Shown: positions 801 through 7,831 of the stretch, piece after piece
Numbering within the stretch: position 1 is the stretch's first letter
Layout of the letters: every line of letters begins with the position of its first letter
Assembly: GCA_027063755.1 (NCBI GenBank)
Contig: JAMORD010000078.1
Location: forward strand, 1 to 8,310
DNA from: a bacterium
GTDB lineage: Bacteria > Coprothermobacterota > Coprothermobacteria > Coprothermobacterales > JAADFF01
DNA length: 8,310 bases
Direction of reading: 5' to 3'
Notes under the pieces: generated by a model
Seen by the model: the letters and a program-made list of their open reading frames with translations, nothing else
What the model was told of the DNA's origin: nothing
The model's database searches: none
Program-made: the position numbers and the translations under genes

Positions 801-917
801 TCATACATAAGTGGCTTCAAATTCCCTAATGTCTCCATAGCATTTATATATAGATACAACTTTATCTACATTTATGCCGACAATGGTGGCAATATTTTCT
901 GCTATGTCTCTATTTTC
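801..917 (-). pseudogene. C-terminal remnant of a decayed gene
   Basis: An open stretch of 38 codons ending in TGA at 803-801. It has no start codon of its own and follows a TAA at 920-918. The peptide (NRDIAENIATIVGINVDKVV...) looks like real protein: balanced composition, amphipathic helix, codon use like the neighbours. It lies just downstream of the 935-1276 segment in a different frame, with a third frame (YGKMVWYVRK) open between them. I read it as the displaced C-terminus of that gene. It begins with RDIAE, as does the upstream segment near 1413, with a near-identical 16-base DNA match. It could instead be chance open sequence. Confidence 0.4.
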
Positions 918-934
918 TTACATACCATACCATT

Positions 935-1392
935 TTACCGTATACCAAGCCTCATAGCAAAATGCTGAAACTCACCATATCCTTGTGGAAAACCTAGACT
1001 AACATAAATCTCATTAACCTTGACCTTTTCACCAAATTGTCTATTAGCATATCCAATAATGTCATCTATGACATTAAAGGGATGTCTATGCGATATCGTG
1101 TATAGATACTGTAGGGAAATCTCATTGTCCATCCAAGTATATATTCCTAGCAAAGGCTCGTCAGAAGATATATAGTACGCATCGTTTACACTAACTGTTG
1201 ATGTGGGTACAATTCCCAACATTTGGGAAACATCTTCATATTTTCTCTGCTTTATATCGGGCTTTTGCAAAGCCAATGAAAATTTTTTCCCTCGTTAGGA
1301 TATGTATTTTTATCAAAATTATCAAAATATACCAACTGTGATATATGACAGGCATAGTCCATAAGATAGGTGGCCATATGGTTAATTTTCAT
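935..1392 (-). pseudogene. Hypothetical protein, frameshifted
   Basis: The longest open piece is 935-1276 (113 codons from a TTG), which I do not recognise. Directly upstream, in the frame one base off, 1287-1392 encodes a sensible peptide starting MKINHMATYLMDYACH and continuing to PNEGK. The frames meet at an A6 run (T6 on the plus strand, 1283-1288). Shifting back one base there joins them as NEGK-KFSLALQK, giving about 150 residues without a stop. The junction reads A AAA AAT, a possible -1 slippery heptamer, but loss or gain of an A is the simpler reading. The joined protein is soluble-looking, rich in Tyr and Ile, with no known motif. An alternative is that 935-1276 is a gene in its own right from TTG 1276, with GAGGGA 11 bases upstream, longer than the usual spacing. 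Confidence 0.5.
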
Positions 1393-1424
1393 AAAAGTTT
1401 CTGCTATATCCCTCTGGATATCGG

Positions 1425-1616
1425 TTATTTGACTATCTTTTCACTTGTATGTTTATTCTCAGGTGGTTCTGAATAACTATTGGGCATTGGAACATCAGAC
1501 ACTGCATTTGTAGACAAAATGTAGTTAGACACACTCATGCCGTATGTCCACGCTATAAATATTAGCATGACAGCAAGCACAATGCCAGCAAGAACCTTTT
1601 CACTCACATGCCCCAT
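1425..1616 (-). CDS. Small membrane-anchored hypothetical protein
   Basis: 63 residues. Residues 8-30 form one hydrophobic helix (VLAGIVLAVMLIFIAWTYGM) after a short N-terminus with one Lys. A polar, Pro/Ser-rich tail follows, probably outside the cell. Not recognised. ATG 1616 follows a TAG directly; GTG 1607 is an alternative start, and neither has a strong ribosome binding site. An extended -10 promoter lies about 25 bases upstream. The stop at 1427-1425 falls in A-rich sequence. Going back one base at the A4 run (GTGAAAAG, about 1436-1439) would continue the frame as SEKDSQITDIQRDIAET into the segment starting at 1392. This ORF may therefore be the N-terminal signal anchor of the broken gene downstream rather than a separate small protein. 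Confidence 0.45.
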   Translation of the reverse strand: MGHVSEKVLAGIVLAVMLIFIAWTYGMSVSNYILSTNAVSDVPMPNSYSEPPENKHTSEKIVK

Positions 1617-2781: not shown

Positions 2782-2805
2782 ACTAATAACATGGAGGTGC
2801 CTAAA

Positions 2806-3240
2806 TTGGCTGATTTAAAATTTAGAGTATCGGCAAGTCTCACAGGCAAATTTACCGTAGAGGGAAAAATCAGAAAACACACGGTGCTACTTGACGAACC
2901 TGCAGATCTCGGTGGAGACGACAAGGGACCTAACCCCGTAGAACTCATACTGCTTGCACAGGCTGGCTGTATTCTCATGGTAGGAAGGGTTGTGGCAATG
3001 GAAATGGGATTTAATATAAACAGTTTCAAAATTGATGTTGTAGGTGTACTAAATCCTGAGAAGTTCATGGGCAAAGAGACACAAGACAGAGCAGGACTTA
3101 AAGAAATCACACTAAAGGTACATATAGACGCCGACGCAGATAGAGACACACTGGAAAAATGGTTAAAAACAGTAGAAGAAAGATGCCCTGTGAAAGACAA
3201 CCTTGTAAACACCACACCTGTAAAAGTAGAGCTTGCATAA
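2806..3240 (+). CDS. OsmC/Ohr-family protein
   Basis: 144 residues, typical for the OsmC/Ohr superfamily of thiol-dependent peroxidases acting on organic hydroperoxides in the cytoplasm. The two conserved Cys are present: Cys55 in LLAQAGC, at the start of the long central helix after the GPNPVELIL segment, and Cys127 in EERCPVKDNL. Together they form the redox pair. The layout (N-terminal strands, central helix, then KEITLKVHID and a C-terminal helix) fits OsmC-like proteins rather than Ohr proper. The start is TTG 2806, because GGAGGTG (2793-2799) is 6 bases upstream. An in-frame ATG at 2791 overlaps that site and has no site of its own. It is read divergently from the CcdA-like gene across a perfect dyad, which suggests shared redox or stress control. 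Substrate unknown. Confidence 0.9.
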   Translation: MADLKFRVSASLTGKFTVEGKIRKHTVLLDEPADLGGDDKGPNPVELILLAQAGCILMVGRVVAMEMGFNINSFKIDVVGVLNPEKFMGKETQDRAGLKEITLKVHIDADADRDTLEKWLKTVEERCPVKDNLVNTTPVKVELA

Positions 3241-3355: not shown

Positions 3356-3829
3356 TCAGCAGGTATGGTGCAGGTGATGGAGCAATTTCAAAAGATCTTC
3401 ACTAAGCACATGTAGGTTTTCACGCAAACATTGAGAAATCTCAGTAGACGGCCTGATATTACTTTCATCTACACCTATTAGATAAAATACCTTCCTCGCA
3501 CTGGCAATCTCCGACATGGTCTTTTCAAGCAGTTTAAGACTGTCAATAACACCGATCATATGGGCATGCTTCATAGAAGCCTCAAGATTCTTTACATCTT
3601 CTGCAGACATAATCTCTGCCCTACCACACGGGAAATGTTCACCTACTACAGCGTCAACAAACACAATGGGATCCTCACCCTTATAAAAATGTGGGAGTCT
3701 CAGCACATCGGTATGCAGAAAGACTCCCCTTGCATAATCGGGTAGCAAACCATCAATATACTTGTAAAGGTGATAGCCTACACCCTCATCACCCATTACA
3801 TCGTTGCCAAGAAAGACCACAAGAATCAA
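3356..3829 (-). CDS. [NiFe] hydrogenase maturation endopeptidase (M52, HybD/HycI family)
   Basis: 157 residues, normal for the family. These proteases recognise nickel in the immature large subunit and cut its C-terminal tail, letting the active site close. The N-terminal motif LGNDVMGDEGVG matches the family GN-x4-DEG-x-G signature. Likely nickel ligands by comparison with HybD (E16, D62, H93) are Glu15, Asp59 (IVFVDAVV) and His90 (MKHAHMIGV). The C-terminus is odd, ending LLHHLHHTC with four His and a Cys, a possible extra metal site. The start is TTG 3829, with GGGAGG 8 bases upstream inside the end of hydA and only 3 bases between the genes, so it is translationally coupled. It is the last gene of the operon, before a terminator. 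Its specific target is almost certainly the HydA encoded just upstream. Confidence 0.92.
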   Translation of the reverse strand: MILVVFLGNDVMGDEGVGYHLYKYIDGLLPDYARGVFLHTDVLRLPHFYKGEDPIVFVDAVVGEHFPCGRAEIMSAEDVKNLEASMKHAHMIGVIDSLKLLEKTMSEIASARKVFYLIGVDESNIRPSTEISQCLRENLHVLSEDLLKLLHHLHHTC

Positions 3830-3832
3830 TAT

Positions 3833-5140
3833 CTATGCCTCCCGAATAAGATGAACACTACAGGAAATACACGGATCATAAGCTCTGGGAACCATCTCAA
3901 GATATCTTATAAACTCATCATCGTCTATATCGGGATTATCTGCAAGTATGCCTTCTGCCATTCTCTGAACATCTCTGTGCATGGTGTTGAAGTTATACGC
4001 TGTAGGTGCAACAAGATCGGCAAATACAACCTCTCCTTTATCGTTATACTCAACAGTGTAAGAGACAATACCTCTGGGTGCCTCTGTAATGCATACTCCC
4101 ACACCAGCTTTGGGTTTAACCTCCACTCTATCATTGTCAAGTGGCATATCAAGCAACTTGCGTAAAACTTCAAGAGAGGCATCAATGAAATACAGAAGCT
4201 CTATTGCCTGAGCAAGGTTGTTGTAGAAAGCATTGTTAAAGCGTAATTTGCCTGAGTCAATAAGCTCTTTATAAATCTTCAATGACTCACCCCAAAGTGT
4301 TTCACCATTAACAGCCAAACGAGACAACGCCCCTACCATGAACTCTTTGCCATCAAGATATGCAAACTTCGTAAAGGAATGTGAAACTGGTTTCTCTACA
4401 AGATATTCTCTATACTTTTCCACAGGAAACTCTACACCACTGGTAGAGGCAACAACATCACCAAAAGCATCAAACTCATCAGTTTGTTTCAGTGCCACAT
4501 GGTTATACTCACCATCAAGATACTTTGGCATATCCAGAGAAGCAAGAAGTTCAATGGCAATCTTTGCCGTATCTCTAATCTCTTCAAGCTGTCTATATGC
4601 TTGGTTCATCTCTTCTCGTGAGGGTATCTTTCCAAATCCACCAACTATGGCATTTTCTTGATGAATCTCTCTACCACCGACCATAGCCTGAATGTAGTTG
4701 GCAACCTTCTTCATCATCAGTCCCTTTGTTACCTCTGTGCCATATTTATCGGCCATAGATATAGCATCAGGATAACCTAAGAAATCAGGCAGGGCAAGTA
4801 GAAATACATGAAGAGAATGACTTTCAATAAAGGAGGCATACACAAGGAGCTTTCTGAGAAGCTTGGTAAGCGTGCCAACCTCTATACCAAATGCCCGTTC
4901 CGTTGCCATAACAGATGTCAGCTTGTGTGAAGCAGAACAAATGGCACATATACGACTATACATATCTACTGCAACATCATAGGGTTTACCTCTGGTGATA
5001 TATTCAAAAAACCTTGGTCCTTCAACAAGCCTAAGAACTGCCTTGACATTTGTACCCTCTCTGTAAACCTCTATCATACCCCTACCCTCTACACGGGCAA
5101 GGTGCTCAACAGTTATAATCTTCCTCTGTATTTTTCCCAC
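3833..5140 (-). CDS. hydA: [NiFe] hydrogenase alpha (large) subunit, group 3b-like
   Basis: 435 residues, close to the Pyrococcus sulfhydrogenase alpha subunit. It holds the Ni-Fe site where H2 is formed or split, in a cytosolic complex. All four metal-ligating Cys are present: Cys65 and Cys68 in RICAICSASH near the N-terminus, and Cys424 and Cys427 in DPCISCSVH at the C-terminus. RVEGRG, with its conserved Glu, is at residues 17-22. Only five residues (LIREA) follow the final His430, so the tail removed on maturation is very short, as in Pyrococcus SHI-type enzymes. A GTG at 5149 is also in frame. GTG 5140 is preferred because GAGGTGA lies 5 bases upstream and the same 12-base element precedes the gamma gene start. 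It begins one base after the delta stop, so translation is coupled. The substrate couple (NADPH, and possibly polysulfide) comes from the family, not from this sequence. Confidence 0.96.
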   Translation of the reverse strand: MGKIQRKIITVEHLARVEGRGMIEVYREGTNVKAVLRLVEGPRFFEYITRGKPYDVAVDMYSRICAICSASHKLTSVMATERAFGIEVGTLTKLLRKLLVYASFIESHSLHVFLLALPDFLGYPDAISMADKYGTEVTKGLMMKKVANYIQAMVGGREIHQENAIVGGFGKIPSREEMNQAYRQLEEIRDTAKIAIELLASLDMPKYLDGEYNHVALKQTDEFDAFGDVVASTSGVEFPVEKYREYLVEKPVSHSFTKFAYLDGKEFMVGALSRLAVNGETLWGESLKIYKELIDSGKLRFNNAFYNNLAQAIELLYFIDASLEVLRKLLDMPLDNDRVEVKPKAGVGVCITEAPRGIVSYTVEYNDKGEVVFADLVAPTAYNFNTMHRDVQRMAEGILADNPDIDDDEFIRYLEMVPRAYDPCISCSVHLIREA

Positions 5141-5141
5141 C

Positions 5142-5939
5142 TTACTCACCTCTCACCAGAGATTTAAACTTTTCTATAATCTCATCACTATGTCCACCAA
5201 ACACCTTCATACGCTTCAGTGCTTCAAGGGGATCTACCCCGTTTTTCTCCATCATCTTTGCCATGGCATCTACACGCTGAATCTCCTTAATAGGACCACG
5301 GCAGCCCATACAAGGAAGCCCCAGTGATGGACATCTTGCGCCACAACCAGCTGTTGTAAACGGCCCGAGACATGGCTTACCCTCTTCTATGACAACACAC
5401 GGATTGCCTTTTTGCCTACACTCTTGACACACAGGAAAATCTTTCTGTTCCGGCCAAGTAGACCATATAAATGTTGCAAGGAAATATAGAAACTCCTCCT
5501 TCTCTATAGGACAGCCGGGTAGGTAAAAATCTACATCTATAACCTTATCAAGAGGTCTTGGTGGCATAACCTTCATATCAAACTGAAAGTTCTCTCCATA
5601 TACCGTCTTTATAGCCTCGTCAAGGCTAAAACCTGCCCCAATATTTGCACTCTGCACACCACCATGACATGCACATGTCCCCATGGCAACAACATACTTA
5701 GCCTTTTCTCTAACCTTTTTTACAAGCTCTTCATCATCTTCGGTAACAACAGCACCTTCTATAAAGGCAACATCAACAGACTCCTCTATCTTTGAAGCAG
5801 ATGTTGCCATATGAAAACAGACGATCTTCACCTCTGTAAATATATCAATAAGTTTATCTTCTATATTGAGCACATTCAGCTGGCACCCATAACACGATGT
5901 TGTCGGATAAAACCCCACTCTTAGTTCTCTCTTCTCCAT
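5142..5939 (-). CDS. hydD: [NiFe] hydrogenase delta (small) subunit
   Basis: 265 residues, matching sulfhydrogenase delta subunits. It carries three [4Fe-4S] clusters that move electrons between the Ni-Fe site in alpha and the beta/gamma modules. The proximal cluster ligands are Cys16 and Cys19 (TTSCYGCQLNVL), Cys89 (MGTCACHGG) and Cys143 (LPGCPIEKEE). A second Cys-rich part at 171-213 (CQEC, then Cys181, 190, 199, 203, 210, 213, ending PCMGCRGP) supplies the medial and distal clusters. There is no Tat signal, so it is cytosolic. The open frame runs upstream to 6074, but the real start is ATG 5939, with GGAGGGG 5 bases before it; the longer version would lie inside the gamma gene. It is separated by 13 bases from gamma and one base from alpha. 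Confidence 0.95.
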   Translation of the reverse strand: MEKRELRVGFYPTTSCYGCQLNVLNIEDKLIDIFTEVKIVCFHMATSASKIEESVDVAFIEGAVVTEDDEELVKKVREKAKYVVAMGTCACHGGVQSANIGAGFSLDEAIKTVYGENFQFDMKVMPPRPLDKVIDVDFYLPGCPIEKEEFLYFLATFIWSTWPEQKDFPVCQECRQKGNPCVVIEEGKPCLGPFTTAGCGARCPSLGLPCMGCRGPIKEIQRVDAMAKMMEKNGVDPLEALKRMKVFGGHSDEIIEKFKSLVRGE

Positions 5940-5952
5940 GACAGCCCCTCCT

Positions 5953-6816
5953 TCACTCCATGAGTTCTGGGTACCTCTGTACCTGTCTGTAAGAAAATAC
6001 CGGACCATCTTTGCACACATATAGCATGCTGTCAGAGCTACCCACATTGCAGTGCCCACACTTGCCAATGCCACATCTCATTCTTCTCTCAAAAGTGGCA
6101 TATATATAGTCTGGGTCAAACCCTCTGGCAATAACCTCATCAAATATACTCTGATACATACGAGGAGGTCCACACATGATAACCACACTGTTTTTCGGAT
6201 CAACATTGGCTTGAGGAATATACAGATGACACCTACCTTTGCATACTCCTTCAACTTCTTCCCTTGTCACCGTCTGTATAACCTTGACACCATCACCTTT
6301 ATATGTGCGTGCTATAGCTTCAAGCTCCTCATAATATAAGAGGTCTCTTTTGGTTCTTGCAGAGTTAATCAGAGTGATATTGCCATAATCCCAACGATTA
6401 TCAAGGGCATAGAGAAAAACACTTCTCAGTGGAGCCATACCAAGTCCAGCAGATAAGAACAGAAGATCTCTGCCCTTCCACTCATCTATGGGAAAGCCAT
6501 TGCCATAAGGCCCACGAATCCACACATAGTCTCCCTCATTAAGATTATGAATAACTGTTGTCACTCTACCAACCCTTCTAATAGTCAATGCAAAGAACCC
6601 TTTCTGCGTAGGAGGAGAACATAGTGATATAGGCACCTCACCTATACCGGGCAAATTAACCTGCACAAATCTTGCCGGTCTTGTATAGTTTCTTTCAAAC
6701 TCTTCCTGGTCTTTGGGATCTACAAATGATATAACAAACATCTTCTCTGTCGGTGTTACCTTAAATACCTTCTTTATCACGGCCTTTTTCGGCTGAAGAG
6801 GATTATTATTTGGCAT
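5953..6816 (-). CDS. hydG: Hydrogenase gamma subunit, FAD/NAD(P) oxidoreductase
   Basis: 287 residues of the ferredoxin-NADP reductase-like family, as in sulfhydrogenase gamma and SudB/NfnA-type proteins. It exchanges electrons between NAD(P)(H) and the Fe-S chain. The N-terminal FAD domain covers about 10-110, with VPISLCSPP in the flavin site. The nucleotide domain has FLSAGLGMAPLRS (about 120-132) and VIMCGPPRMY (about 212-221). A C-terminal [2Fe-2S] site uses Cys248, Cys253, Cys256 and Cys268 (RCGIGKCGHCNVG...YVC). NADP versus NAD preference cannot be read safely. Start ATG 6816 has GAGGTGA 6 bases upstream, and the gene overlaps the end of beta by 11 bases. The name hydG follows the Pyrococcus operon and is not the radical-SAM [FeFe] maturase of the same name. 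Confidence 0.94.
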   Translation of the reverse strand: MPNNNPLQPKKAVIKKVFKVTPTEKMFVISFVDPKDQEEFERNYTRPARFVQVNLPGIGEVPISLCSPPTQKGFFALTIRRVGRVTTVIHNLNEGDYVWIRGPYGNGFPIDEWKGRDLLFLSAGLGMAPLRSVFLYALDNRWDYGNITLINSARTKRDLLYYEELEAIARTYKGDGVKVIQTVTREEVEGVCKGRCHLYIPQANVDPKNSVVIMCGPPRMYQSIFDEVIARGFDPDYIYATFERRMRCGIGKCGHCNVGSSDSMLYVCKDGPVFSYRQVQRYPELME

Positions 6817-7831
6817 GCTTACTCACCTCACTAAGTTTCTGAAGATTCTCCCAGAAATTGATACCAGCAGGGCAAAAAGCCGTGCATCTACCACAGCCTA
6901 CACAGTAAGACAAATTCGTTCCATAGGCAGGGGAAATCTTACAGTTGTACCTATTTTTCATTCTGTCTGCTACCGTAGGACGGAAATTATGACCACCGGC
7001 AACAAGGGCATGATGTTCAAATTGACAAGAATCCCATACCCTCTCTTGAATAGCATGAACACCATCTATAGAGGGAATATCTCTTACCTCATAGCACCTA
7101 CATGTGGGACATGTAGTATTGCAGTTTCCACATGCAAGACACTCTTCAGAAAGCTCTTCCCACACATCAGAGTGTCTATGCATTTCAAGCACACCACGCA
7201 ATACATAAGCGTCCATATCCCACTTAAACCCCTGTCTTCTCTCTTCTTGATATCTTTCAAATGCCTTAAAGTCATCTGTGCTTGCATCCTCCATACCAAT
7301 CTCATCGGCCAGTGCCTGCCCTCTCTCAGAGAGCACCCTAACCAGCCATCCATCTGGTAGTGGATGAAGGAAAATATCAAAGCCATCGGTGGAAAACGAT
7401 GTGTGAGTCACATTGCACGCACAAAACTCATCGGGTTTACAATCATAGCCTACAATAAACAGGTGTTTTCTTCTACGGCTGTAGTAAAAATCTGCTGGAT
7501 ATCCCATAAACACGCTGTCAAGCCTCTTCAGTCCCTCTATATCGCAGTGATGAAGTCCAAAGAGAACAATAGGCCCCATATCTTCCTCTGGAATAGAAAC
7601 CTTACCCTTTTCTCTATCAATCTCAAACATAACCTCGTGTGGCGGATACACAAATTTCTTCGGTGGTGAAATAGTGCGCACATAATTTAAATCCATGTCG
7701 TCAAAGCGGGAAACCTTTCTAAAATCATATGTCTTCTTGCTAATCTTTACAGGACCGTATATCTCTCCATATTTCCTTAGCGCTTCAAACAGTCGGTCCC
7801 TGTCCTCATACCTCAGTTTTAGGTATCGCAC
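6806..7831 (-). CDS. hydB: Hydrogenase beta subunit, 4Fe-4S dicluster protein
   Basis: 341 residues, slightly shorter than Pyrococcus HydB. It is the outer electron-transfer subunit of the sulfhydrogenase, linked in the family to sulfur/polysulfide reduction along with gamma. Two ferredoxin-like [4Fe-4S] motifs lie in the C-terminal third: CLACGNCNTTCP (Cys231, 234, 237, 241) and CVGCGRCTAFCP (Cys310, 313, 316, 320). Extra Cys are at 244 and 246. The N-terminal alpha/beta domain has GLHHCDIEGLKRLD (Cys96) and DCKPDEFCAC (Cys131, 137, 139), as in the HydB/anaerobic sulfite reductase A family. The start is GTG 7831, with AGGAGGG 6 bases upstream. It is the first gene of the operon, preceded by a 190-bp gap with promoter-like sequence. 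Its 3' end overlaps the gamma gene by 11 bases. Confidence 0.94.
   Translation of the reverse strand: MRYLKLRYEDRDRLFEALRKYGEIYGPVKISKKTYDFRKVSRFDDMDLNYVRTISPPKKFVYPPHEVMFEIDREKGKVSIPEEDMGPIVLFGLHHCDIEGLKRLDSVFMGYPADFYYSRRRKHLFIVGYDCKPDEFCACNVTHTSFSTDGFDIFLHPLPDGWLVRVLSERGQALADEIGMEDASTDDFKAFERYQEERRQGFKWDMDAYVLRGVLEMHRHSDVWEELSEECLACGNCNTTCPTCRCYEVRDIPSIDGVHAIQERVWDSCQFEHHALVAGGHNFRPTVADRMKNRYNCKISPAYGTNLSYCVGCGRCTAFCPAGINFWENLQKLSEVSKHAK

Follow-up and report, generated by a model that had tools for sequence, protein, structure and literature searches.

Genomic context

The window analyzed here is an entire contig of 8,310 bases (C78), one of the 251 that make up a 1.5-Mb assembly. It opens on the plus strand with a peroxiredoxin gene of the AhpC/TSA type (62-601, with the start probably at 95) and a DUF3783 gene (591-788). 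These are followed on the minus strand by an apparently broken gene of about 820 bases (801-1616), a gene for a 101-residue protein (1677-1982) and a gene for an SfLAP/LysE-like membrane protein (1986-2684). An OsmC-like gene then lies on the plus strand (2791-3240), and the remainder is dominated by a minus-strand cluster (3356-7831) encoding a hydrogenase maturation protease and a four-subunit, sulfhydrogenase-like NiFe hydrogenase. The hydrogenase cluster is intact, and its subunits resemble HydB, HydG, HydD, and HydA of sulfhydrogenase 1, all of them scoring under the curated equivalog cut-offs. Immediately ahead of the OsmC-like gene, a 23-base inverted repeat (TTAGGAGATAAGTTATCTCCTAA, 2759-2781) may be a conserved operator, and a 91% match to it precedes the OsmC-like gene of the sister species (L008:4294-4316). 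An Rfam search of the window returned no match.

Architecture of the broken gene

Within 801-1616, we found four open segments in a row on the minus strand, essentially as an earlier, sequence-only reading of this DNA had described them. Segment A (1425-1616), the gene start, lies in frame 0 and encodes 63 amino acids beginning MGHVSEKVLAGIVLAVMLIFIAWTYGM. Judged by eye, its N-terminus resembles a signal anchor, with a charged start and then about 19 hydrophobic residues. Segment B (about 1288-1440; DSQITDIQRDIAETFMKINHMATYLMDYACHISQLVYFDNFDKNTYPNEG) lies in frame 2, which is open from 1440 to 1255, and the open reading frame (ORF) listed from the ATG at 1392 extends to 1252. Segment C (935-1288) lies in frame 1 and comprises 113 to 117 codons, the lower figure being the 113 amino acids counted from the TTG at 1276. 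Finally, segment E (801-917) returns to frame 0, with 38 codons ending in TGA and no internal ATG, GTG, or TTG start. Joined, the segments would give a product of about 270 residues, rather than the roughly 260 first claimed. Segments B and E both encode RDIAE within a direct repeat of 21 bases (1393-1413 and 891-911, 81% identical); the likeness goes no further and is probably due to chance.

Stop positions confine the junctions between segments to short minus-strand intervals. Both frames are open over 1428-1440 for the A/B junction, which has an A4 run at its upstream end (1438-1441, not 1436-1439 as previously placed), and over 1255-1294 for the B/C junction, which includes an A6 run at 1283-1288, exactly where the earlier reading put it. 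The C/E junction (913-971) requires two lesions, as that reading had also proposed, because frame 1, used by C, closes at 937, while frame 0, used by E, has a stop at 920-918. These could be two shifts by way of frame 2 (reading YGKMVWYVRK) or one shift together with the in-frame TAA at 920-918; the path of a Viterbi model with mild penalties sets the two shifts at 943 and 921. The total is thus at least four lesions, with two single-base shifts and two further changes around 913-971. The longest homopolymer run anywhere in 801-1616 is 6, and runs at the other junctions do not exceed 4.

Coding signal across the frame changes

Using a codon table trained on 173 long open frames from the same assembly, we found that the minus-strand coding signal passes from frame 0 to frame 2, then to frame 1 and back to frame 0, switching where stop codons permit. 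On this scale, 40-codon windows of real genes average 0.25 in-frame and -0.28 out-of-frame. Each of the four segments reads as coding in its own frame and in no other. Segment A scored 0.175, against -0.48 to -0.53 for the other minus-strand frames, segment B scored 0.129 in its own frame, and segment C scored 0.130, against -0.18 and -0.25. Segment E scored 0.334 (a sum of 16 bits), a value that only 0.5% of out-of-frame windows reach. In segment B, the signal begins upstream of the ATG at 1392, evidence against a separate gene with its start at that codon.

A frame-aware Viterbi model with penalties for frameshifts and stops gave 22.7 bits at its strict setting, on a path from A to C, and 34.2 bits at its milder setting, on a path from A to E. 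Dinucleotide shuffles averaged 0.3 to 0.5, and 0 of 300 attained the observed score at either setting, indicating that the coding signal continues over the frame breaks. The longest single open frame (119 codons) is, on its own, poor evidence, being matched by 18 of 1,000 shuffles. The GC content of the broken gene is 35.7%, versus 40 to 45% in most contigs of the genome. The earlier statement that an intact promoter remains did not hold up, as promoter-like sites in the region occur at chance frequency (10 found versus 8.5 ± 2.6 expected).

Homology searches

The individual segments, and a read-through protein with an X at each junction, gave no match above the cut-off against Pfam, PHROGs, NCBIfam, or PADLOC, only chance matches against PDB sequences, and no matches in plasmids, phages, or viral and genome contigs. 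Across about 970 genomes, including those of the genus and the order, similarity was at chance level only (the best, at E = 9e-4 per genome, was in 1 of 395 genomes searched); these single-sequence searches detect fairly close relatives only, such that membership of a distant family is possible. Neither the organism's own genome nor eight relatives carry a second copy, and, among the genomes searched, only a single species has the broken gene. Predicted from its sequence alone, the fold of segment C had a mean pLDDT of 44. The full-length homologue spanning the junctions, for which the earlier reading had proposed to search with the joined translation, thus appeared in none of the collections. 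Its central proposal, that one gene has been split by frame changes, is supported by the coding signal; the segments are joined solely on the grounds of codon usage and frame geometry.

Comparison with the sister species

Apart from the genome under study, that of the sister species was the one genome found for the genus. The DNA matches the sister sequence L008 up to 781 (89% identity) and again from 1788 (84%), leaving a block without similarity (782-1787) around the broken gene. Similarity resumes only at 1788 because the 101-residue protein departs from its counterpart in the sister far more strongly over its C-terminal third (1680-1787) than elsewhere in the gene. The genes flanking 801-1616 are intact and syntenic, including those nearer the contig end. 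At the same site, the sister carries a 1,427-bp block with two intact plus-strand genes unrelated to the broken gene. Specifically, the first encodes a protein whose N-terminus is signal-like and which carries repeats like the N-terminal domain of copper amine oxidase (PF07833, E = 4e-24), and the second encodes a membrane protein with a weak, below-cut-off likeness to DUF4405. Proteins with PF07833 abound in both species and across the order, and the sister's genes at the site, at 37% GC, are AT-rich, like the broken gene. The site is therefore variable in gene content between the two species.

The sister species also supplied the background against which the lesions were counted. Comparing sister proteins with sampled contigs, which cover part of the assembly, and making the reverse comparison, we found 0 frameshift junctions in 48 to 65 protein pairs spanning 46 to 56 kb. 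Both internal stops in this genome's alignments fall where the N-terminus of the query had been extended too far; in the reverse direction, stops in the sister turned up in nine alignments, whose queries were frames read from stop to stop and included at least one lying antisense to a gene. A Viterbi lesion count over the other contigs was dropped, as it scores overlapping neighbor genes as frameshifts, and the sister-species comparison was used in its place.

Interpretation

At least four lesions in 0.82 kb, versus no frameshifts in 46 to 56 kb of genes shared with the sister, make a general base-calling error an unlikely cause of the breaks. Together with the codon signal, this bears out the view of the earlier reading that the region reflects decay rather than generally poor base-calling. 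We consider it likely that 801-1616 is a pseudogene, left by a single orphan accessory gene, restricted to this species, whose product had about 270 residues and a signal anchor at its N-terminus. The four segments would once have formed one reading frame, the encoded protein may have sat in the membrane, facing outward, and the lesions would have built up after the gene lost its use. The present product should be no more than the anchor peptide of 63 residues, and the region probably has no protein function today. Such a pseudogene would share several features with frameshift pseudogenes of bacterial ORFan genes, including several breaks in one gene, intact neighbors, a GC content under that of the genome, and a gene-content difference between sister species, but it differs from them in that no intact relative of the gene was found.

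The strongest competing explanation is that the organism itself has an unbroken gene and that the breaks arose locally, during sequencing or assembly. This has some appeal: the contig is short, the metagenome assembly is fragmented, the broken stretch starts just 801 bases from the contig end, and short A runs lie in or touch two of the junction intervals. Nevertheless, those runs are only 4 and 6 long, the compared genes are free of frameshifts, and the flanking genes are intact on both sides, even toward the contig end, leaving local error an unlikely account. Less plausible still is that the segments are separate, small, intact genes. Possible starts exist for A (ATG 1616), B (ATG 1392), and C (TTG 1276); however, the coding signal of B begins before its ATG, E contains no start codon, the segments follow directly on one another in successive frames on one strand, and the collections searched hold no homologue of any of them as a gene in its own right.

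Phase variation, which the earlier reading had raised beside decay, or programmed frameshifting, would keep the gene switchable or readable, and the A6 run inside one junction interval could be cited in its favor. A predicted membrane-anchored product and a homopolymer at one junction are indeed shared with surface genes that vary by slippage in simple repeats. Yet phase-variable tracts are usually longer than A4 or A6; here, no single long repeat sets the frame, the independent lesions are too many, and all four would need to revert together. Further, there is no conserved relative in which the runs are seen to be kept, and one segment lacks a start codon. We regard this explanation as very improbable. 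It is scarcely credible that, in a deep-branching thermophile lineage, ribosomes still shift frame repeatedly along the four segments and so make a single membrane-anchored protein.

For the favored explanation, a decayed accessory gene, the observation is sound and the biology is ordinary. Its importance extends little beyond annotation, where automatic gene callers would report one to three spurious small proteins from the region. Additionally, it marks a variable site between the peroxiredoxin/DUF3783 pair and the transporter-hydrogenase cluster, at which the AT-rich genes, coding for exported or membrane proteins, differ between two sister species. As a separate observation, two adjacent secreted or membrane proteins of the sister at this site (L008:1957-3224), the first of which also bears the PF07833 repeats, share a Cys/Asp-rich motif, DCPFGExNDxYPGKCxxYIDTxxxGICDHSE, just past their signal-like N-termini.
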